From NCBI GenBank assembly GCA_030950365.1, contig JAUZRQ010000012.1, positions 1 to 41,722 on the forward strand: a stretch of 41,722 nt of DNA, read 5' to 3'. Each line of letters opens with the position of its first letter. Position 1 is the first letter of the stretch. A program made the translations under genes and the position numbers. Below the pieces are notes generated by a model, which was not told where the DNA came from, did no database searches, and saw nothing but the letters and a program-made list of their open reading frames with translations. This document shows positions 17,235 through 29,529 of the stretch, in pieces. This stretch comes from Candidatus Zhuqueibacterota bacterium. GTDB lineage: Bacteria > Zhuqueibacterota > Zhuqueibacteria > Zhuqueibacterales > Geothermadaptataceae.

Positions 17235-18572
17235 ATGCATCTGGAAAAGCTGCTACAAAATCGCAAAACCGTGGTGGTGACGCTCATCGCGGCGATTTTT
17301 CTCGTGCTGGGCGCCCTGAATTTGTTTAGCTGGCTGTTCTTCAAGCGCATGGAGGCCAACCTTGACCATGAGCTGGGCCGGCGGCTGCAATCCGTGGCCG
17401 GACTGGTGGCTCGGCTGGCAGAAAGCGAAATTTTCGGCACCAAACTGGATGCTGAATTGAACGAGGTGGAGCGCTATATCCTGCAAACCAGCCTCGATGA
17501 GCTGCGCGACATTAACCAGTTGCAGGCCATTTACCTGGTGACGCCGGAACTTGTTACAATCTTTTCGTCGCCGCCGCACTTCAAACCCGGCGAGATGATC
17601 CGATACCTAATGGAAGATAGCCTTCAAATTCAGCTCGCACTTCAGGGCCGCAATCAGGCCTCGCCTCTGCATGTGATCGAAGGAAATCGCTTTAAATCGG
17701 GATATGCTCCGTTTCACAATGAACTGGGCAAAATCATCGGGCTCGTCATCGTCGAGGCCTCCGCTGATTTTTTCTCCCTACTCAAGTTCTACCGTCGTGG
17801 TTTGATTCTGGGCGGCATCGTCAGTTTCATGGTGGTGCTGCTGGTGGCGTTTTTTATTTCGTGGATCGTGATGTCGTTCGTGCGGTTGCAGGAGCGGCTG
17901 CATCAAAACGAGCGGCTGGCGGCCATGGGACAAATGGCGGCGACGGTCGCGCATGAAATTCGCAATCCGCTGGGCATCATCAAAAGCACGGCCGAGGTGT
18001 TGCGCAACCGGTACCGCAACCCGGAAAAGCAGGACGAATTGTTGGAATTCATTCCGTCCGAGGTGGACCGGCTGAATCGGCTGGTGAGCGATTTTCTCAC
18101 CTTCGCGCGCGACAGGCAGTACGAGCTCGAAACCGGCGATCTGGTGGCCACCATCGAAAAGGCCATTGAGGACATTCGCGCGGAGATGGCGGGCACGGAA
18201 ACACGCATTCAGTTTGAGCCTTCGGTCAGCAAGCTGGCCGTGCCACATCATTCGGACGCCATTCGGCAGGTGATTTTGAACCTGGTGCGGAACGCCGTAG
18301 AAGCCATGAACGGCAGCGGCGATGTGAAAGTTTTGATTATTCCTGAAACAAAATGGGGGAGAAAACAGGTTAAAGTAAGTGTTGCGGATAACGGCCCCGG
18401 GGTCAGCGGTGATCCCGAGAAGATCTTTGAACCGTTTTATACAACCAAAACGTCGGGCAGCGGTTTAGGACTGGCCATCACCCGGCAGATCATCGAGAAA
18501 CACGGCGGAAAAATCTCCATTCACAGTCACCCCGGCGAAGGCACCACGGTCACATTTTTTCTGCCGAGATGA
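17235..18572 (+). CDS. membrane sensor histidine kinase, orphan
   Basis: This is a 445-residue sensor kinase. Two membrane segments (about residues 13-36 and 199-223) flank a periplasmic sensing region of about 160 residues that I do not recognise. No HAMP domain is evident: a short linker leads straight to the phosphoacceptor helix MGQMAATVAHEIRNPLG with His240. The catalytic domain shows the N box (ILNLVRNAVEAMNG), G1 (VADNGPGV), F (IFEPFYTTK) and G2 (GSGLGLAI). It is the last gene of the dapF operon, starting six bases after the DUF488 gene. No response regulator is encoded in the window, so its partner is elsewhere. Confidence 0.94.
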   Translation: MHLEKLLQNRKTVVVTLIAAIFLVLGALNLFSWLFFKRMEANLDHELGRRLQSVAGLVARLAESEIFGTKLDAELNEVERYILQTSLDELRDINQLQAIYLVTPELVTIFSSPPHFKPGEMIRYLMEDSLQIQLALQGRNQASPLHVIEGNRFKSGYAPFHNELGKIIGLVIVEASADFFSLLKFYRRGLILGGIVSFMVVLLVAFFISWIVMSFVRLQERLHQNERLAAMGQMAATVAHEIRNPLGIIKSTAEVLRNRYRNPEKQDELLEFIPSEVDRLNRLVSDFLTFARDRQYELETGDLVATIEKAIEDIRAEMAGTETRIQFEPSVSKLAVPHHSDAIRQVILNLVRNAVEAMNGSGDVKVLIIPETKWGRKQVKVSVADNGPGVSGDPEKIFEPFYTTKTSGSGLGLAITRQIIEKHGGKISIHSHPGEGTTVTFFLPR

Positions 18573-18876: not shown

Positions 18877-21800
18877 ATGAGCATGAAGTCAATCTCTCGC
18901 GTCTTTTTGGGGATTTGGACGGTTCTGTTGCTGGCGGCACAGGCGCACGCGCAGTTTGGAAAAAACAAGATTCAGTATCACGATTACGAGTGGAAATACA
19001 TACAGACCGAGCATTATGATATTTATTTCTACGGCGATGGCCTGAATGCGGCCAAATTTGCCGCCGCAGTGGCGGAATCCTCATACAAGCAAATCAGCCG
19101 CCTGCTGGATTTTGAAATGCAGGCCCGCACCCCCATCATCCTGTATAACTCACACAATGATTTCGAGGAGACTACGGTATCGCCGGAAATTCAGGAAGAA
19201 TCCGTGGGCGGTTTTACCGAATTTTTAAAGAACCGGGTGGTTTTGCCATATGATGGATCGGCTGAGCAGTTTCGGCATGTGATTCATCATGAGCTGTTTC
19301 ACAGCCTGCATCTCCAGTATTTTTATGGTGTTGGGCCCGGTGCCATCATTCAGGGCATCTCGGGATTCGCCATCCCACCCTGGTTTGAAGAAGGAAGCGC
19401 GGAATACTTTTCCATCCATTGGGATACCGAGTCTGACAATTTCATTCGAGATGCTGTGGTTTCAGGATATATGCCGCCGATTCCACGCATGTGGGGGTTT
19501 ATGGCCTACAAAGGGGGACAGGCTCTCATGTATTGGATCGAACGTCGATATGGGATCGAAAAAATTACGCAATTGAATGCGGTCATGCGACAACGTAAAA
19601 ATGTGCAAAGGGCCTTTCGTTCGGTTTTTGGTATGAGTGTTGAAGAGCTCAGTGATAAATGGCATCAAGATCTGAAAAAAGAATACTGGCCAGAAATTGC
19701 CAAACGCAAGGCTCCGGATGAATTAGCCATGCCCATTACCGATCACCGCAAGAACGTTAATTTTGTAAACAACGGGCCTTCCCTTAGCCCAAAAGGCGAT
19801 AAAATTGCTTTTTTAAGTGATCAGGCCGGCAAATTCGATATTTGGGTGGCCTCGACCCTGACGCCGAAGAAACCCAAAAAGCTGGTAAGCGGCCAGAAAT
19901 ATAGCGGCCTGGAAGAGATGAAGTGGCTGCGTCCGGGAATTACCTGGTCGCCGGATGGCAAAAAGCTTGCTTTCGCTGCCAAGGCCGGTGAACGGGATGC
20001 CATTTATATTGTTGATGTGCGCAGCGGCAGGATTGAGAAGAGCTTTAGACCGCGTCTGGATGGCCTGTGGAGTCCGGCGTGGTCACCGGACGGTCGTTAC
20101 ATTGCTTTCATGGGCGCCAAAGCCGGCCGCAGTGACATCATGCTGATCGATGTGTATTCCGGCGAGATCACCCGGGTGACGGACGATCCGTACACCGATA
20201 TGGAGCCGGCCTGGTCGCCCGATGGGCAGTGGATCGCTTTTACTTCTGATCGCGGCGTGTTCAAAGAGCCGGTGGAAGATGTACTTCCGCTTGCCGATTT
20301 CGCCAATATCGATGTGTTTCTTGTCCGCCCGGATGGTAGCGACCTGAAGCAGGTGACCTTCGGTCCATACAAAGATAAATTTCCCATCTTCTATCATAGC
20401 AGCGATTCCCTGCTTTACATTTCCGATGCCAACGGCATCAGCAATATCTATTTTCTCAATCTGAAAACTGGCGAAAGCAAGCCATTGACCAACCTGCTGA
20501 CCGGCGCGGTACAGATTTCCGCTTCTATCGAGGGCGACCGAATTGCGTTTACCTCGTTTTACCGCGGTGGATATGATATTTACCTGTGGAAAACGCCGTT
20601 TCAGGATGTGGATTCACTCGGCGAGCTTGAGCCGACGCCGTTCCGCAAACGGCAAATGAAGCAAAAAGAAAAGCCGCACATGCTCACCGAAAAATCGAAC
20701 GGCAAAGAGCGCCCCAAATTCGATATCATGGATCGGCCGTTTCGCAAGTTCGTATTCGATGCCGACTTTCGCGAAGGCAAGATTCGCAACCAGACCATGC
20801 TCGCCGCGCCGGTGGAAATCGCCAAATCGGAACGGCTGACCGAAAAAGGTGAGTTCAAGGTCAGTCCATACAGAACCAAGTTCTCGGTGGACTGGATCGG
20901 AGCCGCCGGCGGCTATGATCCGTTCTTCGGCGTGAGCGGCTACACGCAAATTATCCTCAGCGATTTGATGGGCCATCAGCAAATCGGCATCGGCATTAAC
21001 CTGATTCGTAATATTCAAAATAGCGATTTTATTGTGAGCTGGAATTATTTACCAAAACGCTATGACATAGGCGTTCAGCTTTTCCATTTTGCCTATTTCT
21101 TCCAGACTACCTTTGGTATCGAGCGGCTGCGACATCTGGGCGCCCAAGCATTTTTCTTGTATCCGATCTCGCGGTTTAAGCGCATTGAATTCATGACCAA
21201 CCTTACGCAATTGCGTGAGCAGAATCTGATTTATACGGATATTTTCCCGCAGCAAATCACCACGGCCATGCCCATGACCCTGGCGTACGTATCCGACAAC
21301 ACCTTTTGGCGATTCTTCGGACCGTTCAGCGGAACCCGCTACCGCCTGAGTCTGATTTGGGCACCGCAGTTGCGCAATAGCTGGCTGTCATTCCAGACCG
21401 CCATGTTGGATTACCGAACCTATCTACCGCTGTCTAAAGAGGTCGGCTTTGCGTTCCGCATCAACGGCGGCGTGAGCGGAGGCCCGAACCCGATGCAGTT
21501 CATTATTGGCGGCGTGGAAAACTGGATCAACCCGCGCTTTGCACAGGACATCAACCGGATTGACATCACCAATTTCTTTTTCAGCTACTTCGCCTTTCCG
21601 TTGCGCGGCGCCAATTACTACGAACGCGTCGGCACCCGTTTTTTTCTGATCAACGCCGAGCTGCGCTTTCCGCTGGTGGACTACTTCATCATCCGCTTTC
21701 CGCTGCCCATGGGCTTTGCCAATATCCGCGGTGCCGGCTTTCTGGATGTGGGCTCGGCCTGGGATTCGGATAAGCGCTTTCGCGGCACCACGGTTAACGA

Positions 21801-21960
21801 AACAGGGGAAGTGGTTTTGCGCGATATTGTGGCGTCCTTCGGCTGGGGCTTCCGTGCCAACATGGGCATTTTCCTGCTGCGCATGGATACGGCCTGGCGC
21901 ACCGACCTGGCTTCGACCAGCAAACCGCAGTACTTGTTCAGCCTGGGCATCGATTTCTAA
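18877..21960 (+). CDS. exported peptidase-MA / TolB-propeller / outer-membrane-barrel protein
   Basis: This is a 1027-residue three-part envelope protein. After a signal peptide (VFLGIWTVLLLAAQAHAQ) comes a gluzincin-like domain with HHELFHSL (His138, Glu139, His142) and the downstream Glu of WFEEGSAEY (about 171-172), as in the peptidase MA-like superfamily. Residues of about 295-580 contain TolB/PD40-type propeller repeats, each with a WSPDG-like turn (SLSPKGDKIAFLSD, TWSPDGKKLAF, AWSPDGRYIAF, AWSPDGQWIAFTSDR). The last 340 residues are rich in alternating aromatic strands and end in Phe (YLFSLGIDF), as expected of an Omp85/surface-antigen-type barrel. It probably sits in the outer membrane; the substrate is unknown. 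The start ATG 18877 follows GGTGGAA; ATG 18883 is possible. Confidence 0.85.
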   Translation: MSMKSISRVFLGIWTVLLLAAQAHAQFGKNKIQYHDYEWKYIQTEHYDIYFYGDGLNAAKFAAAVAESSYKQISRLLDFEMQARTPIILYNSHNDFEETTVSPEIQEESVGGFTEFLKNRVVLPYDGSAEQFRHVIHHELFHSLHLQYFYGVGPGAIIQGISGFAIPPWFEEGSAEYFSIHWDTESDNFIRDAVVSGYMPPIPRMWGFMAYKGGQALMYWIERRYGIEKITQLNAVMRQRKNVQRAFRSVFGMSVEELSDKWHQDLKKEYWPEIAKRKAPDELAMPITDHRKNVNFVNNGPSLSPKGDKIAFLSDQAGKFDIWVASTLTPKKPKKLVSGQKYSGLEEMKWLRPGITWSPDGKKLAFAAKAGERDAIYIVDVRSGRIEKSFRPRLDGLWSPAWSPDGRYIAFMGAKAGRSDIMLIDVYSGEITRVTDDPYTDMEPAWSPDGQWIAFTSDRGVFKEPVEDVLPLADFANIDVFLVRPDGSDLKQVTFGPYKDKFPIFYHSSDSLLYISDANGISNIYFLNLKTGESKPLTNLLTGAVQISASIEGDRIAFTSFYRGGYDIYLWKTPFQDVDSLGELEPTPFRKRQMKQKEKPHMLTEKSNGKERPKFDIMDRPFRKFVFDADFREGKIRNQTMLAAPVEIAKSERLTEKGEFKVSPYRTKFSVDWIGAAGGYDPFFGVSGYTQIILSDLMGHQQIGIGINLIRNIQNSDFIVSWNYLPKRYDIGVQLFHFAYFFQTTFGIERLRHLGAQAFFLYPISRFKRIEFMTNLTQLREQNLIYTDIFPQQITTAMPMTLAYVSDNTFWRFFGPFSGTRYRLSLIWAPQLRNSWLSFQTAMLDYRTYLPLSKEVGFAFRINGGVSGGPNPMQFIIGGVENWINPRFAQDINRIDITNFFFSYFAFPLRGANYYERVGTRFFLINAELRFPLVDYFIIRFPLPMGFANIRGAGFLDVGSAWDSDKRFRGTTVNETGEVVLRDIVASFGWGFRANMGIFLLRMDTAWRTDLASTSKPQYLFSLGIDF

Positions 21961-22002
21961 ATCGTGAATGCAACGGATTTTCATAAACGGATGGACTCCA
22001 TT

Positions 22003-23274
22003 ATGGCAACAAAAAAGATCCGATTTCGCTCAATTCAACCGTTGATGTTTATAGGATCAATTCTCGGCTTGATGGCGGGCGGCTGCGCCGTCCCCAGCGG
22101 AGGCGTGCACGGAACGGACGTGTGGTCGCGTCTGAACCTGTCAGCTCGCGTGATCAATCTACCTTCAGAAACGCCGAATCTGGGCCGGGTGGTGTGCTTC
22201 GCCGAGGTCCGCTACCGCGATATTCAGTTTGTTAAAACCGATGACGGCTACGAGGCCGTGCTGGAATTCACGTTTTCGATTTATCAGAAAGACAACCGCG
22301 AACCGCTGAAACTCACCGACCGCAAGAAAATCCTGCGTGTGGGGACGTTCCGGGAAACCATCGATCGCAAGAAAACGGTGCGCTTACTGGAAAATTTTGA
22401 GGTGCCGTTTGGTCAGTACACGGCGCGGGTAGTGGTGCGCGATCGCAATGCGCGCAGCATGGGCATCGCCAGCGAATCGATCGAAGTGGTGGACCTGTAC
22501 AGCAATCTATTTATCAGCCGCCCGATCTTGATGTGGGACTCGGTGAGCACGCTCGATCCCGATCAAATGGTGCCGTTTCAAAATCGTCGATATGAAAACG
22601 ATGTTTTCGCATTAGTGGTGGTTGGCGGTATCAATCCCAAAGAAACCTACAAAATTCATTACCGCCTCGAGGACACACGCGGACAGATGATGTATGAGCG
22701 CACGATGAATTTGAAACCAACTGGCCGAGTGAATTTCGTTTCGCTGCGCATTCCGGTGAGCAAACTGGCGCTGGGCAAAACCAACATTCTGGTGACCGCC
22801 GAACAATTCGGCAACCGCGTCGCCAGCCGTTTGACGCTGTATTCCTCTTTGGGCCGCGGCACCGAGGTCACGCAAAACATCGATTCCTACATCGAGCCAA
22901 TGCGCTACATAATGCCATCGGATGACTGGAAGAGACTGCGCGACGCTAACCCAGAAGAGCGCAAAAAGCTGTTTGAAGCCTTCTGGAAAGAACGGGATCC
23001 CGATCCGAATGATTTGGTCAATCCACTAATGGAAGAGTTCTTCTTCCGGGTGCAGGAAGCAAATCAGAAATTCAGTTGGGGCTCGGAAGAAGGCTGGGAA
23101 ACCGATCGTGGTCGGATCTACATCATTTACGGCCCGCCGGACAGCATCGAGCGGCAGCGATCGCCACGCTCGGGCATCACCTATGAAATCTGGCGCTACT
23201 ATAATATCGGTAGGCAATTCGTGTTCGAGGATCGCTACAATAATGGCAATTACCGGCTGTATTCATCGAATTGA
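22003..23274 (+). CDS. GWxTD-domain lipoprotein
   Basis: This is a 423-residue protein with a lipoprotein signal: a basic start, a hydrophobic core, and the lipobox LMAGGC with Cys28. The C-terminal domain carries the signature Gly-Trp-Glu-Thr-Asp at 364-368, followed by RGRIYIIYGPPDSIERQ and YEIWRYYNIGRQFVFEDRY. The preceding DPDPNDLVNPLMEEFFFRVQEAN is typical of the GWxTD family. The middle region is predicted to be beta-sandwich. The family's function is unknown; it is mainly found in FCB-group and related uncultured bacteria. It follows the peptidase/propeller/barrel gene by 42 bases and precedes a triple-BON protein. ATG 22003 is preferred over upstream in-frame starts because a signal peptide begins there. 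Confidence 0.9.
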   Translation: MATKKIRFRSIQPLMFIGSILGLMAGGCAVPSGGVHGTDVWSRLNLSARVINLPSETPNLGRVVCFAEVRYRDIQFVKTDDGYEAVLEFTFSIYQKDNREPLKLTDRKKILRVGTFRETIDRKKTVRLLENFEVPFGQYTARVVVRDRNARSMGIASESIEVVDLYSNLFISRPILMWDSVSTLDPDQMVPFQNRRYENDVFALVVVGGINPKETYKIHYRLEDTRGQMMYERTMNLKPTGRVNFVSLRIPVSKLALGKTNILVTAEQFGNRVASRLTLYSSLGRGTEVTQNIDSYIEPMRYIMPSDDWKRLRDANPEERKKLFEAFWKERDPDPNDLVNPLMEEFFFRVQEANQKFSWGSEEGWETDRGRIYIIYGPPDSIERQRSPRSGITYEIWRYYNIGRQFVFEDRYNNGNYRLYSSN

Positions 23275-23334
23275 TGGAATCCATTGTTCAGGTTCAGGCT
23301 TTGCATCCGTGAATTTTGTAACCGGGAGAAACTT

Positions 23335-24090
23335 ATGCGTCAGCAGGGGAACGCGGTGACCCGCATTGCAACCTGTGTGTTTGGTTTAATCCTTGCGACC
23401 GGGATGTTTTCCGGTTTCGGTCTGGCTCAACAGACCAGGGAAGATTCGCTGTTGGCCAGCCGCATTCTGGAAGAATTTGAGAAAGACAGCCGGATGCCGG
23501 TCAGCGGCATTTCCGTTGTGGTGCTGAACGGCATGGTACGGCTCAAGGGCGTGGTTTCCACCCTGGCCCAAAAGCACTGGGCCGAGGAAATTGCCTATGG
23601 TGTCCCCGGCGTGCGCGTGGTGGACAACAAACTCTGGGTCGATCGGCCGCGCATTTCCGATGCCAGGTTGAAAAAGAACATCGAGAAAACATTGCGCAGC
23701 AATCCGGATTCGCTGTTCAAGCACGTGCGCGTGCGAGTCGAGGATGGCGAAGTGCGGCTGAAAGGCACCGTGAGTAGCTGGGGCGCCAAATACACCGCCA
23801 CCGACATCCTGTCGATGATTCCCGGGGTGCAGAAAATCAAAAATGACCTCAAAATCCGCGACGCCAAAAACCGCACCGATGAGCAAATTCGCCGCGCGGT
23901 GATCCGCGCCATTCGTAAGAAAATTTCCACCAGTAGTGAGTATTGGATCAAGGTGAAAGTGGTGCGCGGCGTGGTGACTCTCAAGGGGCGCGTGCGTAGC
24001 GAAAATGAAAAGCGCATTGCCATTCAGACGGCGCTGTTCGTGCCAGGCGTCGCTGAACTGGTGGACAAACTGGAGGTCCTGCCAGAATAG
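23335..24090 (+). CDS. exported protein with three BON domains
   Basis: This is a 251-residue protein with a signal peptide (CVFGLILATGMFSGFGLAQQ) and three tandem BON domains, roughly residues 38-105, 109-175 and 182-251. Each has a helix followed by a V.V.NG.VRLKG.V strand and a PGV...V.... motif: VVVLNGMVRLKGVV / VPGVRVV, VRVEDGEVRLKGTV / IPGVQKI, VKVVRGVVTLKGRV / VPGVAEL. BON domains are thought to bind lipid or act in envelope stability. GGGAGA lies before ATG 23335. It lies 60 bases after the GWxTD gene and is probably cotranscribed. Confidence 0.9.
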   Translation: MRQQGNAVTRIATCVFGLILATGMFSGFGLAQQTREDSLLASRILEEFEKDSRMPVSGISVVVLNGMVRLKGVVSTLAQKHWAEEIAYGVPGVRVVDNKLWVDRPRISDARLKKNIEKTLRSNPDSLFKHVRVRVEDGEVRLKGTVSSWGAKYTATDILSMIPGVQKIKNDLKIRDAKNRTDEQIRRAVIRAIRKKISTSSEYWIKVKVVRGVVTLKGRVRSENEKRIAIQTALFVPGVAELVDKLEVLPE

Positions 24091-24272
24091 CGTGCCTGGG
24101 GAGGCATTTCAGGGGGAGCCTTACGCAATAAGAGAAAGTTTTCTGCTCTTTCGTTCCATTCTGTTTGCCCTTTCCTGCCTTCTCTCGTAGATTGCGCATG
24201 AGTCACCGGACCAGGGCATTCGTGTGCCATTGGGTCCTTTTCCAAAGCCGCTCATGCAAATCGAGGGTATTC

Positions 24273-25328
24273 ATGTTCAAAAAGAAGTGGTTTCGCGTTG
24301 CCGTCACGCTGCTTTTCGTGCTGGCGTTTCTGGTTTTGAAAACCTATCGCGATGCCGGTGAATTCAAAGCGATTCAGGCGATTGGTGGGCAGGAATGCCG
24401 GTTGGTTTCTGGCGTTCAAAGTTCCGAAGACATCACCATTCATCCGAAAACGGGCATGGCCTTCATCTCCTCCGATGACCGCCGGGCCTTTGTGCAGGGG
24501 CTGACCTCGCAGCCGGGCGCCATTTACGGTTTCGATCTGACAAGCTCGGAGCCGGTGCTGGTCAACCTGACGCCGACCCTGCCGTTCGAATTCCATCCCC
24601 ATGGTATTGGTCTGTATATCGATGACAGCGATTCTACCTGGCTCTTTGTGGTCAATCACCGTGAGGATGCATCGTATGTGGAAATATTTCAGTTTGACGG
24701 TAGCCGATTGCGTTACGTGGAATCCATTCATGGCGAACGGATGCACAGCCCTAACGATGTCCTCCCCGTGGGGCGGCGGCAATTTTACGTGACCAACGAC
24801 CATGGCAATACTTCGAAACTGGGGCGCCTGCTCGAAGAATATTTGCAACTGGCGCGATCGCATTTGCTCTACTACGATGGCCATTCTTTCCGCGAAGTCG
24901 CCGGCGGGTTCGGATACGCCAACGGCGTCAATATGAGTCCGGATGGTCGGCGGCTGTATGTGGCGGCGACCACCAGCAAGGCGGTGTTTGTGTTTAATCG
25001 CGATCCCCACAGTGGCGATTTGACGCCGCGTCAGCGGATCGATCTCGGCACCGGGGTGGATAATATCGAAGTCGATGCAAACGGCGATTTGTGGATTGGG
25101 GCGCACCCCAAACTGCTGACGTTTGTCGCCTATTCAAAAGATGCGAATAAGCTCTCGCCATCTCAGGTAGTACGCATTCACTGGCGGGGGGAGGGAAATT
25201 TCGATATCAATTACATGTATAGCAGTGATGGCCGGCCTCTATCTGGCTCCAGTGTGGTCGCCGTTTGGGGAGAGCATTTGCTCATCGGCTCGGTGTTCGA
25301 TCCGGCGTTTTTATGGTGCAAAAGGTAA
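24273..25328 (+). CDS. membrane-anchored paraoxonase/arylesterase-like protein
   Basis: This is a 351-residue protein resembling the serum paraoxonase (PON/arylesterase) family, six-bladed propellers that hydrolyse lactones and esters using calcium. An uncleaved-looking N-terminal membrane segment (about residues 8-23, VAVTLLFVLAFLVL) matches the retained anchor of PON proteins. Typical stretches include SSEDITIHPKTGMAFISSDDR, FHPHGIGLYID, LFVVNHRE, MHSPNDVLPVGRRQFYVTNDH, GFGYANGVNMSPDGRRLYVA and GVDNIEVDANGDLWIGAHP, which supply the Asn/Asp/Glu calcium ligands. The substrate is unknown. ATG 24273 is preceded by GAGGG. The next gene follows after 67 bases. Confidence 0.88.
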   Translation: MFKKKWFRVAVTLLFVLAFLVLKTYRDAGEFKAIQAIGGQECRLVSGVQSSEDITIHPKTGMAFISSDDRRAFVQGLTSQPGAIYGFDLTSSEPVLVNLTPTLPFEFHPHGIGLYIDDSDSTWLFVVNHREDASYVEIFQFDGSRLRYVESIHGERMHSPNDVLPVGRRQFYVTNDHGNTSKLGRLLEEYLQLARSHLLYYDGHSFREVAGGFGYANGVNMSPDGRRLYVAATTSKAVFVFNRDPHSGDLTPRQRIDLGTGVDNIEVDANGDLWIGAHPKLLTFVAYSKDANKLSPSQVVRIHWRGEGNFDINYMYSSDGRPLSGSSVVAVWGEHLLIGSVFDPAFLWCKR

Positions 25329-25395
25329 GTTGACGCTTCCCCGGGGTCTGGCAGCGTTTCATTATCCAATAGAGACCATTCATATGGAGGATACG

Positions 25396-27879
25396 ATGGC
25401 ATACGAAAATAAATTTCTGAATGTGCAATGGCTATTTCTCAGGCCATTGTGGTGGATGCCCTTTATTATAATGGTTCTAACCATGCACGTATTTGCACAA
25501 TCCGGTACAGAGTATCAGTACCGCATGCCGCCGAAAGCCATTGCGGATCTGGCGGACGCGCCGCCCACGCCATCGGTCAGTCTATCGCCGGATAGCCGGT
25601 GGTTGCTGGTCATGGAGCGGCCCAATCTGCTGCCCCTCCGCGAGCTGGCGCAACCGGAACTGCGACTGGCCGGCCGGCGCTTCAATCCGCGCACCAACGG
25701 CCCCAGCCGTAGCCGGTATTACACCCAATTGAGTTTGCTGAACCTCGATGACCGCAGCACGCGTCCGATTCTGGGATTGCCGGACGATCCGCGCATCCGC
25801 GACATCCGGTGGTCGCCCGATGGCCGCTGGATTGCCTTCTCGCACACGCGCCATGATGCGGTGGAACTGTGGGTGGTGGATGTAACCGCCGCGAAGGCGC
25901 GCCGCCTGGCCGATGTGCGTCTCAACGGCGTGTACGGCACGCTGTACCGGTGGATGCCCGACAGCAAATCCTTGATTTGCAAAATCGTGGCCGAAAACCG
26001 CGGCGAACCGCCCACACCGCCCGAGGTGCCCACCGGACCGACCATCCGCGAAACTACCGGCCACAAAGCGCCGGCGCGCACCTATCAAGATTTGCTGAAA
26101 AATCCATTTCACGAAAAGCAGTTCGAATATTACATGAAATCGCGGTTGGCGCGGATCGACCTGAACGGACAGGTGACCGGACTCACGGAAACCGCGCTGT
26201 ACACCTTTTTCGAGCCGTCGCCGAATGGCGAGTATTTGCTGGTGCAGTCGATTCACCGGCCGTTTTCGTATCTGGTGCCGGTGTACCGGTTTCCCCGCCG
26301 GGTCGAGGTGCTGGATCGTAACGGCAAGCTCGTGAAACAGCTCGCTGACCTGCCGCTGGCCGAGGAAGTGCCCATCGGTTTTGGCGCCGTGCCCACGGGG
26401 CCGCGTGCGTTCGGCTGGCGTTCCGATGCACCGGCCACGGTGTACTGGGTGGAAGCACAGGACGGCGGCGATCCGCGCGCCAAGGTGGATATCCGCGACA
26501 AAGTGTTCATGCTAGCGGCGCCGTTTGCCGACAAGCCCGCCGGGCTTATTTCGCTGGGGCTGCGCTATTCCGGCATCCAGTGGGCCAACGACCGGCTGGC
26601 GCTGGTGAACGAATTCTGGTGGCGCACGCGCCAGACGCGCACCTGGATCGTCGAGCCCGCAAAGCCGGGCAAAACGCCGCGCATCCTGTTCGATCGCTCG
26701 TACGAAGACCGCTACAGTGATCCGGGGCGGCCGGTGATGCGGTCGGCCGGCAATGGATATTATGTGCTGCAAACCGATCGCCGCGGCCGCAAAATCTACC
26801 TGATCGGCGAAGGCTACTCGCCCGAGGGCAACCGCCCGTTCGTCGATGAGCTCGACCTGCGCTCGAAAAAGACGAAACGCTGGTTCCATTCGCAGGCGCC
26901 GTATTACGAACGGCCTGTGGCGCTCGTCGATCTCAAAAAGCGGCTCATCCTTACGCGGCGGGAATCCAAAACCGAGCAGCCCAATTATTTTCTGCGCGAT
27001 TTGAAAAAGGACCGGCTGGTGCAGCTCACCCAGTTTCCGCATCCGGCGCCGCAGCTCGAAGGCGTGACCAAAGAGCTCATCCGCTACAAGCGCGAGGATG
27101 GCGTTGATCTGTTCGCCACCCTGTACCTGCCGCCCGGCTACAAAAAAGAGCAGGGGCCGCTGCCGGTGCTGATGTGGGCCTATCCGCGCGAGTACAAGAG
27201 CGCCAAAGCGGCCGGCCAGGTGACCAGCTCGCCTTACCGGTTCGTGCGCATCTACTGGGGCTCGCCGCTGTTCTGGCTCACCCAGGGTTATGCCGTTCTC
27301 GAGGGCCCGACTATGCCGATCATTGGCGAGGGCGACAGGGAGCCCAACGACACGTATGTGGAGCAACTCGTAGCCAGCGCAAAAGCGGCGGTGGAGGAGC
27401 TGGTGCGCCGCGGCATCGCCGACCGGGAGCGCATTGCCATTGGCGGGCATTCGTACGGCGCGTTCATGACCGCCAACCTGCTGGCGCATTCCGATCTGTT
27501 CCGCGCCGGCATTGCCCGCAGTGGCGCCTACAACCGCACCCTCACGCCGTTTGGCTTTCAGGCCGAGGAGCGCACGCTGTGGGAAGCGCCCGAGGTCTAT
27601 TTCCGCATGTCGCCGTTCATGCATGCGGACAAGGTGAACGAGCCAATTCTGCTCATCCATGGCGAGGCGGACAACAACTCCGGCACGTTTCCCATCCAGA
27701 GCGAGCGGTTCTATCAGGCGCTGAAGGGGCTGGGCGGCAAGGCGCGGCTGGTGATGCTGCCGCTGGAAAGCCACGGCTACCGCGCGCGGGAATCGGTGAT
27801 GCACATGCTGTGGGAAATGACCGAGTGGCTGGAAAAATACGTCAAAAACGCTCCGCCGCGCTCCGGCACGCAGCCGTGA
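25396..27879 (+). CDS. exported S9-family serine peptidase, glutamyl-endopeptidase-like
   Basis: This is an 827-residue prolyl-oligopeptidase-family (S9) peptidase with an N-terminal signal (WWMPFIIMVLTMHVFAQ). An irregular propeller spans about residues 50-560 (SLSPDSRWLLVMERPN, IRWSPDGRWIAFSHTR). The alpha/beta-hydrolase domain carries the triad Ser686 in GGHSYGAF, Asp759 in HGEADNN and His793 in ESHGYRA. The layout, including PTPSVSLSPDSR near the start and LPLLMWAYPREYKS-like text before the oxyanion region, resembles the glutamyl endopeptidase (CGEP) subgroup rather than dipeptidyl peptidase IV. It is probably periplasmic. GGAGG five bases before ATG 25396 decides the start, although an ATG also lies at 25384. 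Confidence 0.93.
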   Translation: MAYENKFLNVQWLFLRPLWWMPFIIMVLTMHVFAQSGTEYQYRMPPKAIADLADAPPTPSVSLSPDSRWLLVMERPNLLPLRELAQPELRLAGRRFNPRTNGPSRSRYYTQLSLLNLDDRSTRPILGLPDDPRIRDIRWSPDGRWIAFSHTRHDAVELWVVDVTAAKARRLADVRLNGVYGTLYRWMPDSKSLICKIVAENRGEPPTPPEVPTGPTIRETTGHKAPARTYQDLLKNPFHEKQFEYYMKSRLARIDLNGQVTGLTETALYTFFEPSPNGEYLLVQSIHRPFSYLVPVYRFPRRVEVLDRNGKLVKQLADLPLAEEVPIGFGAVPTGPRAFGWRSDAPATVYWVEAQDGGDPRAKVDIRDKVFMLAAPFADKPAGLISLGLRYSGIQWANDRLALVNEFWWRTRQTRTWIVEPAKPGKTPRILFDRSYEDRYSDPGRPVMRSAGNGYYVLQTDRRGRKIYLIGEGYSPEGNRPFVDELDLRSKKTKRWFHSQAPYYERPVALVDLKKRLILTRRESKTEQPNYFLRDLKKDRLVQLTQFPHPAPQLEGVTKELIRYKREDGVDLFATLYLPPGYKKEQGPLPVLMWAYPREYKSAKAAGQVTSSPYRFVRIYWGSPLFWLTQGYAVLEGPTMPIIGEGDREPNDTYVEQLVASAKAAVEELVRRGIADRERIAIGGHSYGAFMTANLLAHSDLFRAGIARSGAYNRTLTPFGFQAEERTLWEAPEVYFRMSPFMHADKVNEPILLIHGEADNNSGTFPIQSERFYQALKGLGGKARLVMLPLESHGYRARESVMHMLWEMTEWLEKYVKNAPPRSGTQP

Positions 27880-28035: not shown

Positions 28036-29529
28036 ATGCTCTTCCACCAAATTCAAAAAACGTCCGGATGGTGGTTCGGCTGGCTGCTGTTGCTTGCGCT
28101 TTTGGGATGCAAGCGCTCTGAATCGGGGAAGGGAAACGAGGAGGCCTTCCCCGATTCCTCGTTTGTCTCGGCGTTGGAGCAGTTGACCGATCCCGTGCCG
28201 GTCGATCTCGATCAAATCCGCGAGCGCGGCCGCCTCATCGCCCTGACGCGGTACAACGCCAACAGCTATTTCATTTACCGCGGCCAGCCCATGGGCTTCG
28301 AATACGAGCTGCTCACCCGGCTGGCCGATCACCTCGGCGTGCGACTGGAGATTCGTGTGCCGGCCACCTGGGATTCGCTGTTCATCCTGCTGTACCGCGG
28401 CGAAGGCGACATCATTGCGGCCAATCTCACCGTGACCAAACAGCGCGCCAAAAAGCTGGCTTTCACCGAGCATCTCATCACCACGCGGCAGGTGCTGGTG
28501 CAGCGCAAACCCGAAGGCTGGCGCAAGATGAAACTGCACGAGATCGAAAAGCAGCTCATCCGCAATCCCATCGATTTAATCGGCAGGCGGGTGCACGTGC
28601 GCCGAAACTCGGCCTATTACACGCGGCTGGTGCATCTGTCCGAAGAACTCGGCGGGGATATCGACATCGTGGCCATGCCGGAAGACCTCGAAACCGAAGA
28701 TTTGATCCGCATGGTGGCTCGCGGGGACATTGACTACACCGTTGCCGATGAGAACATCGCTCTGATCAATCAGGCCTATTACGCCGACATCGATGTGCAG
28801 ACGCCGCTTGGAGTGCCGCAGCGCATTGCCTGGGCCGTGCGGCCCAATGCGCCCCAACTTTTGCAGGCCATCAACGACTGGCTGCGGCAGATCAAATCCG
28901 CCGACGATCCCACGTTCAACCTGATTTACAACAAATACTACAAAAACCGCCGCGCCTTCCGCGCCCGCATGCGCAGCGAGTTTTTCTCCAGAACCGGCGG
29001 CAAGATATCGCCGTACGACGACCTCATCCGGCAGTATGCCGATTCCCTGGGCTGGGATTGGCGCTTGTTGGCGGCGCAGATGTACCAGGAGTCCCAGTTC
29101 GATCCGCAGGCGCGTTCGTGGGCCGGCGCGGTGGGGCTGATGCAGGTGCTGCCGCGCACGGCCCGGCAGTACGGCATCACGCGGCTGTCCGATCCGCGGC
29201 AAAATCTTGCCGCGGCGGTGCAGCAATTGCGGTGGTTGTGGGATTACTGGCAGGAGATCCCGGATCCAGTGGAGCGAATCAAATTTGTGCTGGCATCGTA
29301 CAACGCCGGTCACGGTCACGTGCGCGACGCCCAGCGGCTGGCGCAGAAATACGGCCGCGATCCCATGCACTGGGATGACAATGTTGAATATTTTTTGTTG
29401 TTGAAATCCAGGGAAAAATATTTTACCGATCCGGTGGTACAATTTGGTTATTGCCGGGGAGAAGAGCCGGTCAATTATGTTAAAGAGATCCTGGAGCGTT
29501 ATGAGCACTACAAACGGTTCATCCAGTAA
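28036..29529 (+). CDS. mltF: MltF-like membrane-bound lytic transglycosylase
   Basis: This is a 497-residue lipoprotein with lipobox LALLGC (Cys25). Residues of about 60-300 form a solute-binding-protein family 3 domain (LIALTRYNANSYFIYRGQPMGFEYELLTRLADHL, VTKQRAKKLAFTEHL, VADENIALINQ). From about 330 there is an SLT lysozyme-like domain with catalytic Glu352 in QMYQESQFDP, then GAVGLMQVLPRTARQYG and LASYNAGHGHVRDA. This two-domain layout is that of MltF, which cleaves peptidoglycan to 1,6-anhydro-muropeptides under control of the binding domain. The lipoprotein signal suggests an envelope anchor. Its 3' end overlaps the next gene by 29 bases. Confidence 0.93.
   Translation: MLFHQIQKTSGWWFGWLLLLALLGCKRSESGKGNEEAFPDSSFVSALEQLTDPVPVDLDQIRERGRLIALTRYNANSYFIYRGQPMGFEYELLTRLADHLGVRLEIRVPATWDSLFILLYRGEGDIIAANLTVTKQRAKKLAFTEHLITTRQVLVQRKPEGWRKMKLHEIEKQLIRNPIDLIGRRVHVRRNSAYYTRLVHLSEELGGDIDIVAMPEDLETEDLIRMVARGDIDYTVADENIALINQAYYADIDVQTPLGVPQRIAWAVRPNAPQLLQAINDWLRQIKSADDPTFNLIYNKYYKNRRAFRARMRSEFFSRTGGKISPYDDLIRQYADSLGWDWRLLAAQMYQESQFDPQARSWAGAVGLMQVLPRTARQYGITRLSDPRQNLAAAVQQLRWLWDYWQEIPDPVERIKFVLASYNAGHGHVRDAQRLAQKYGRDPMHWDDNVEYFLLLKSREKYFTDPVVQFGYCRGEEPVNYVKEILERYEHYKRFIQ

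Follow-up and report, generated by a model that had tools for sequence, protein, structure and literature searches.

A WD40-Omp85 subfamily with a TolB-like propeller was described by Heinz and Lithgow in 2014 and likened to a BamA-BamB fusion (PMC4104836), and the patatin-Omp85 protein PlpD has been shown to keep its N-terminal enzyme domain in the periplasm (PMC11116518). At the beta-barrel assembly machinery (BAM), BepA acts on client proteins (PMC8423444) and the BON protein DolP binds BamA (PMC8081527); the accessory subunits of Bacteroidota BAM complexes vary by species (PMC12611786). The locus analysed here lies in a 41,722-nucleotide stretch (the window; contig JAUZRQ010000012.1, positions 1 to 41,722 of the forward strand, assembly GCA_030950365.1) of a Candidatus Zhuqueibacterota bacterium with a genome of 4.98 Mb in 136 contigs; the nearest records with names bear the titles 'bacterium', candidate division KSB1 and Calditrichota. 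It encodes a peptidase-propeller-Omp85 protein (called PHB), followed by a GWxTD protein and a triple-BON protein (Table 1). The three open reading frames (ORFs), all on the + strand, their lengths and the gaps between them (42 bases between PHB and GWxTD, 60 bases between GWxTD and BON) were found as given in an initial annotation made from the sequence alone.

PHB is predicted to unite in one chain a zinc-peptidase-motif domain, a TolB-like propeller and a 16-strand Omp85 (BamA-type) barrel; the combination of an HExxH gluzincin-like domain, a TolB-type propeller and a barrel in one 1027-residue protein, proposed in the initial annotation, was borne out, and the barrel proved to be specifically Omp85-type. 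An AlphaFold2 model calculated from a 77-sequence alignment (predicted local distance difference test, pLDDT, 86.9; predicted template modelling score, pTM, 0.85) contained an N-terminal domain made up mainly of helices, followed by a propeller and 16 long strands (669-1024). Four PD40 repeats were found by Pfam (5.1e-31), and the propeller was aligned with TolB (3iax), the closest propeller, over 244 residues (VIA-align Z 27.0, root mean square deviation 2.1). The NCBIfam TolB equivalog TIGR02800 was matched at 4.2e-41 with 141.3 bits, which is under its cut-off of 343.15, and no TolB N-terminal domain was matched in PHB by Pfam. PF01103 (Omp85) was matched by residues 751-1027 with 39.2 bits (cut-off 24), reaching profile position 324/325. 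The C-terminal region, termed outer-membrane-barrel-like in the initial annotation, thus modelled as a barrel, with 16 strands and alignments to BamA of F. johnsoniae (Z 22.6) and D. radiodurans (Z 21.2; 299 residues, model 671-1027). Loop-6 residues R910 and G911 were kept in 77/77 PHB rows; an RG(F/Y) motif in loop 6 is a feature of the Omp85 superfamily. When PHB was compared with the genome's own BamA by profiles, the PLRG and the strands beyond it were aligned (probability 80, E 1.4e-5). No POTRA domain was matched in PHB (Pfam, E 0.01), and five were detected by the same scan in the genome's own BamA. Because the window's genome encodes this separate five-POTRA BamA, PHB is an additional Omp85 protein.

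The N-terminal domain of PHB shows the gluzincin combination of HExxH and a downstream Glu ligand; zinc binding and proteolysis are putative. H138, E139, H142 and E172 were present in all 77 PHB rows and in 30/30 rows of a set including distant paralogues. HHE formed part of one retrieval pattern for the relatives from a named collection, so that conservation is partly by selection; H142 and E172 were absent from the pattern, and 16 rows from a protein search without it keep all four residues. At least 539 stretches of the named collection carry a PHB relative; the best 80 were kept, and the 77-row alignment is without four of these 80 loci (L180, L203, L216 and L223), which also keep HExxH and the EG motif. 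Peptidase_MA_2 (PF13485) was matched by 29/30 PHB members at E 0.01. A profile comparison matched glutamyl aminopeptidase weakly (E 0.1), with the HELxH and EG motif of PHB falling on its HELVH and NEG, and the structure-match lists for PHB were filled by domains other than the peptidase domain. An HExxH motif is also carried by BepA.

Relatives were matched by the window's PHB in 60/60 cases at E 0.001 and in 19/19 genomes from other classes of the phylum, not every match being full length. Relatives of full length were found across KSB1, Calditrichota, Ignavibacteria, Marinimicrobia and allied metagenome-assembled genomes. Titles among the best 80 of the at least 539 stretches comprised KSB1, Calditrichota, LCP-89, Ignavibacteria, Kryptonia, Marinimicrobia, Zixiibacteriota and Chlorobiales, titles of metagenome-assembled genomes that are possibly wrong. 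Of these best 80 loci, 12 had a GWxTD gene near PHB and 0 had a BON gene there.

About half of our confidence goes to the reading that the PHB family is a module of the Omp85 class for outer-membrane assembly and quality control, equipped with a periplasmic protease of its own. Its topology, activity as a protease, substrates, complex formation and role are inferred here from the predicted fold, motif conservation and gene association. The barrel would sit in the outer membrane, with the propeller and the zinc-peptidase domain hanging below it in the periplasm, and PHB would serve a subset of outer-membrane or exported proteins beside the genome's ordinary BamA. Substrates or partners would be docked by the propeller and inserted or passed with the help of the barrel, and the peptidase would trim clients or remove stalled ones, like the separate BamB and BepA at BamA in E. 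coli. Surface proteolysis, offered in the initial annotation next to envelope assembly, would instead have the peptidase and propeller act outside the cell after passage through the barrel. PHB has a signal peptide and a barrel, as such a protease would, but both ends of Omp85 barrels face the periplasm. Surface delivery of the enzyme was formerly assumed for PlpD (PMC4104836), yet its enzyme domain stays periplasmic (PMC11116518). The N-terminal domain of PHB is likewise expected to be periplasmic, and a surface protease is very improbable; the envelope assembly part of the suggestion is the one that fits the Omp85 barrel and the neighbours of the paralogues.

In the window's class PHB was found paired with a GWxTD gene. 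Neighbours (GWxTD, BON, PHB) were called by six-frame profile searches with profiles built from the sequences of this analysis, and 49 full-length in-class loci were evaluated (the window, L073-L112, L132 and L146-L152; further in-class PHB loci, for example G025:C140, G051:C242, G054:C111, G055:C97:24832 and G056:C48, lie outside this set). A GWxTD gene (at least 200 bits) lay downstream on the same strand in 46/49. One gene family was interposed between the two genes in six of the 46, and the one member scanned was a homocysteine methyltransferase/MTHFR fusion. The three loci without a downstream GWxTD gene were L103, L104 (with a divergent GWxTD gene just upstream) and L146 (cut off by the contig end after 1.9 kb). 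The second most frequent neighbour family (at least 150 amino acids) reached 9/49, and the pair is seen in ten families within the class and in two duplicated copies. That the genes are functionally unlinked neighbours kept together by slow rearrangement is consistent with the lineage-specific BON gene and with the long persistence that synteny can have in related genomes, but is most improbable given 46/49 for GWxTD against 9/49 for the next family, ten families and two duplicated copies.

The window's genome carries a second PHB copy (C69:131760-134858), likewise followed by a GWxTD gene, and the 77-row PHB tree placed this copy and that of the window in two sub-lineages (support 93 and 99). 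In the GWxTD tree (46 proteins), 17 partners of one PHB sub-lineage formed one clade (99/97), 19 partners of the other a separate clade (100/98), and 10 GWxTD genes from the window's genome, none of them neighbouring a PHB gene, were set apart (91/81). This tree took in 36/48 partners, of which 29 were labelled via the PHB tree and seven by PHB similarity (L075, L077, L081, L098, L109, L111 and L149). The parallel trees are as joint duplication would give, and the PHB and GWxTD genes appear to have been duplicated and inherited together. In all, 12 GWxTD genes were counted in the window's genome, 10 of them without a PHB neighbour in the stretches read. At the 19 loci outside the class, a DsbD-family gene was seen within four called genes after PHB in 14 (one scanned; for example L119 and L123), and a short protein of about 180 residues before PHB in 12; Pfam gave no match in two of these short upstream proteins that were scanned.

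The GWxTD domain of the window's partner was matched well over the cut-offs (TIGR04514, 3.4e-33, 114.3 bits, cut-off 28; PF20094, 1.1e-20, 74.6 bits, cut-off 26.9), and a PROSITE-type lipobox was found in the window copy, in agreement with its initial description as a GWxTD lipoprotein. Under the assembly reading it would be a dedicated partner subunit of PHB, lipid-anchored in the window's order to judge by the lipobox. A lipobox was found by pattern in 13 of 48 GWxTD partners, 11 of the 13 belonging to the window's order, and the pattern missed at least L074; the remaining partners carry ordinary signal peptides (judged by eye). The protein was modelled from 13 sequences (pLDDT 84, pTM 0.69) as two Ig/FnIII-like sandwiches and a C-terminal mixed domain bearing the GWxTD motif. 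Structural matches fell mainly on the sandwiches. A sequence search of the PDB gave weak matches only (single-sequence E 0.16 and up, profile E 0.24 and up), and no paper naming GWxTD or its accessions was found in the open-access literature, although subscription papers may hold more.

The best Foldseek match of the GWxTD protein was the biofilm scaffolding protein RbmA (E 8.9e-9), via the tandem Ig/FnIII-like domains. Together with the pairing and the parallel trees, which are as TpsA/TpsB pairs would give, this match speaks for a two-partner-secretion-like pair, with PHB as a dedicated translocator that exports the GWxTD partner to the surface and a peptidase domain that processes the partner en route. 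We consider this unlikely. TpsB proteins have POTRA domains, and none was matched in PHB; the PHB barrel aligns best with BamA; and the Ig-fold matches are unspecific, as structure alignments of the GWxTD protein also reached complement and alpha-2-macroglobulin chains (Z 9-10). Moreover, 17/19 out-of-class PHB loci are without a GWxTD neighbour (with only 11 bases of downstream DNA in L116 and 2.4 kb in L126), though GWxTD genes exist elsewhere in these genomes.

Three BON stretches were found in the third protein (PF04972, 7.9e-41, 138.6 bits, cut-off 27), together with a signal peptide and no lipobox (both judged by eye), so that it is a three-BON exported protein as first annotated. Its gene was present at the PHB locus only in the window and in one genome of the same genus (G001), that is, at 2/49 in-class and 0/19 out-of-class loci, and is a genus-level addition to the PHB-GWxTD pair; the protein would be an optional accessory in the window's genus. 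Of the three-gene cassette proposed at the outset, the PHB-GWxTD pair held (46/49 in-class), and the three genes as one conserved cassette were rejected. BON matches as such occurred in 35/60 relatives. In 20 loci selected for BON, a multi-BON gene adjoined a PHB paralogue in four (L237, L238, L242 and L247), the contig ended near the BON gene in five, at one side of it or at both (L239, L241, L244, L245 and L246), and the other 11 had no adjacent PHB (in two of them, L250 and L252, the BON gene was missed by the BON profile). The four adjoining paralogues occupy two places in the paralogue tree, from which the BON link to the PHB family seems to have arisen more than once. BON as a general PHB partner was also considered and rejected, with a BON gene within three genes at 0/20 loci selected for PHB paralogues.

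A paralogue clade (T2) was recovered with 14 rows in the tree (support 100), and a BamB-like PQQ-propeller gene lay downstream on the same strand in 21/22 T2 loci, frequently overlapping by longest-ORF starts; in the remaining one (L262) the contig ends with the PHB gene. Eight of the 22 were assigned by similarity rather than by the tree (L260, L262, L264, L265, L267, L269, L271 and L273), and L276, which groups with L134 outside the clade, was not counted. The partner in L133, the one scanned with Pfam, matched PF13360 with 124.7 bits, and a lipobox was found by pattern in 15/21 of the BamB-like partners. HtrA/DegP-type genes were found within 3 kb of PHB paralogues in 3/26 loci searched (L237, L238 and L287). 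Two further proteins were noted. A 999-residue protein (L135:6193-9189, G000:C107) has a Peptidase_M1 domain and a sub-cut-off C-terminal Omp85 match and is possibly another peptidase-Omp85 fusion, and a patatin-POTRA-Omp85 (PlpD-like) protein (L300:1354-4083, G000:C125) is encoded in the same genome as the window.

The neighbours of the paralogues also bear on an envelope homeostasis enzyme, in which the barrel would be a PlpD-like anchor for a periplasmic enzyme and the propeller would bind Pal-like or peptidoglycan-linked partners as TolB does. The propeller is closest to TolB (Z 27), PlpD is a precedent (PMC11116518), and a patatin-Omp85 protein occurs in the same genome; the BamB-like and BON neighbours point to protein assembly instead, and neither a TolB N-terminal domain nor the TolB equivalog cut-off was reached, which leaves this alternative rather improbable.

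Several results weigh against an assembly and quality-control module. The window's PHB is below the Peptidase_MA_2 cut-off of 32.4 bits (22.9 whole, 28.2 for the domain alone), as is the paralogue L237 (23.6), with L133 (37.5) and L134 (35.6) above it. The BamB-like partners are below the cut-off of the BamB equivalog TIGR03300 (106 to 191 bits against 285.2; 6/21 scanned), and the triple-BON protein is below that of the OsmY equivalog NF007858 (74.1 against 174). Outside the class a GWxTD neighbour was found in 2/19 PHB loci, both from one genus. Among 20 loci selected for PHB paralogues, no BON gene lay within three genes in any, and none of the four searched partner types was found in 16. 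PlpD, finally, is a precedent for an Omp85-enzyme protein that may serve lipid homeostasis (PMC11116518). Against the background of PlpD, BepA, DolP and the Bacteroidota BAM complexes, a BAM-like module with a built-in protease and exchangeable partners is the most economical reading. Its wider form is tentative: that in bacteria of the FCB group the PHB family forms a second outer-membrane assembly system, complete in itself, with the jobs of BamA, BamB and BepA in one chain and paralogues that take exchangeable GWxTD, BamB-like or BON partners. PHB, which joins an intact protease motif to an insertase-type barrel, is widespread in little-studied phyla, and no role was assigned to a PHB-type protein in the open-access literature searched. 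Should PHB assemble or police outer-membrane proteins, these bacteria would depart from the E. coli and Bacteroidota models in their outer-membrane biogenesis, and a functional context would be gained for the GWxTD family.

Table 1. Positions of the PHB, GWxTD and triple-BON features in the window.
Feature	Position	Strand	Basis
Peptidase-propeller-Omp85 protein (PHB), 1027 aa from ATG	18877..21960	+	ORF call
PHB signal peptide	18877-18954	+	Judged by eye
PHB N-terminal gluzincin-like peptidase domain, residues 27-290	18955..19746	+	Peptidase_MA_2 match below cut-off
PHB HExxH (H138, E139, H142)	19288-19302	+	Motif HHELFH...WFEEGSAEY
PHB putative third zinc ligand E172	19390-19392	+	Conserved residue in alignments
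PHB TolB-like beta-propeller, residues about 297-578	19765..20610	+	PD40 x4; TolB structure alignment
PHB predicted 16-strand Omp85-type barrel, residues 669-1027	20881..21957	+	PF01103, model strands, BamA alignments
PHB loop-6 motif RG (R910, G911)	21604-21609	+	Profile alignment with the PLRG of the genome's own BamA
GWxTD protein, 423 aa, lipobox LMAGGC	22003..23274	+	TIGR04514, PF20094
GWxTD protein, two Ig/FnIII-like sandwiches (residues about 45-285) and GWxTD domain (residues about 289-422)			Predicted model
GWETD motif, source of the domain's name	23092-23106	+	Sequence
Exported triple-BON protein, 251 aa	23335..24090	+	Pfam BON
BON domains of the triple-BON protein	23443-23637, 23656-23859, 23875-24081	+	Pfam

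Operon structure was judged from spacing and strand because a promoter and terminator scan gave no excess over shuffles (6 against a mean of 4.7, and 8 against 7.1). The PHB-GWxTD pair is preceded by a gene for a sensor histidine kinase (17235-18572), whose family was found near PHB in 7/68 loci, five of them from the window's family. On the 3' side of the three genes, an arylesterase-type protein and an S9 prolyl oligopeptidase-family protein are encoded (24165-27879), followed by a protein with an SBP_bac_3 solute-binding domain and an SLT transglycosylase domain (28036-29529), which we take to be MltF-like.

Compared with the systems introduced above, PHB shares with BamA the barrel fold (up to Z 22.6) and the loop-6 RG motif, and differs from it in having no POTRA match and in standing beside a separate five-POTRA BamA. 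With the E. coli M48 peptidase BepA it shares a zinc peptidase at an Omp85 barrel (PMC8423444); BepA is a separate protein of another peptidase family, whereas in PHB peptidase and barrel would be one chain. In the patatin-Omp85 proteins, too, an enzyme domain is N-terminal to the barrel, on the periplasmic side in PlpD (PMC11116518), but there it is a patatin lipase with POTRA, and in PHB a peptidase with a propeller. TolB is similar in propeller fold and PD40 repeats and different in its N-terminal domain, which was not matched in PHB, as well as in the TIGR02800 cut-off, which PHB did not reach. The window's BON protein is exported and multi-BON like OsmY and DolP; it differs in its three BON domains, in showing no lipobox by eye and in scoring below the OsmY cut-off. 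With the WD40-Omp85 subfamily PHB shares an N-terminal TolB-like propeller, an Omp85 barrel and the absence of a POTRA match (PMC4104836), and it fits the published description of that subfamily. PHB differs by the conserved gluzincin-like peptidase domain before the propeller. The main text of the 2014 paper contains no word starting with 'peptidase', and its sections 10 and 13 name no GWxTD, BamB-like or BON gene neighbours (PMC4104836); it was the only open-access paper on WD40-Omp85 found, and subscription papers may hold more. The propeller-Omp85 architecture has thus been known since 2014, and the present analysis adds to it the peptidase domain, the conserved pairing with GWxTD and the exchangeable partners.

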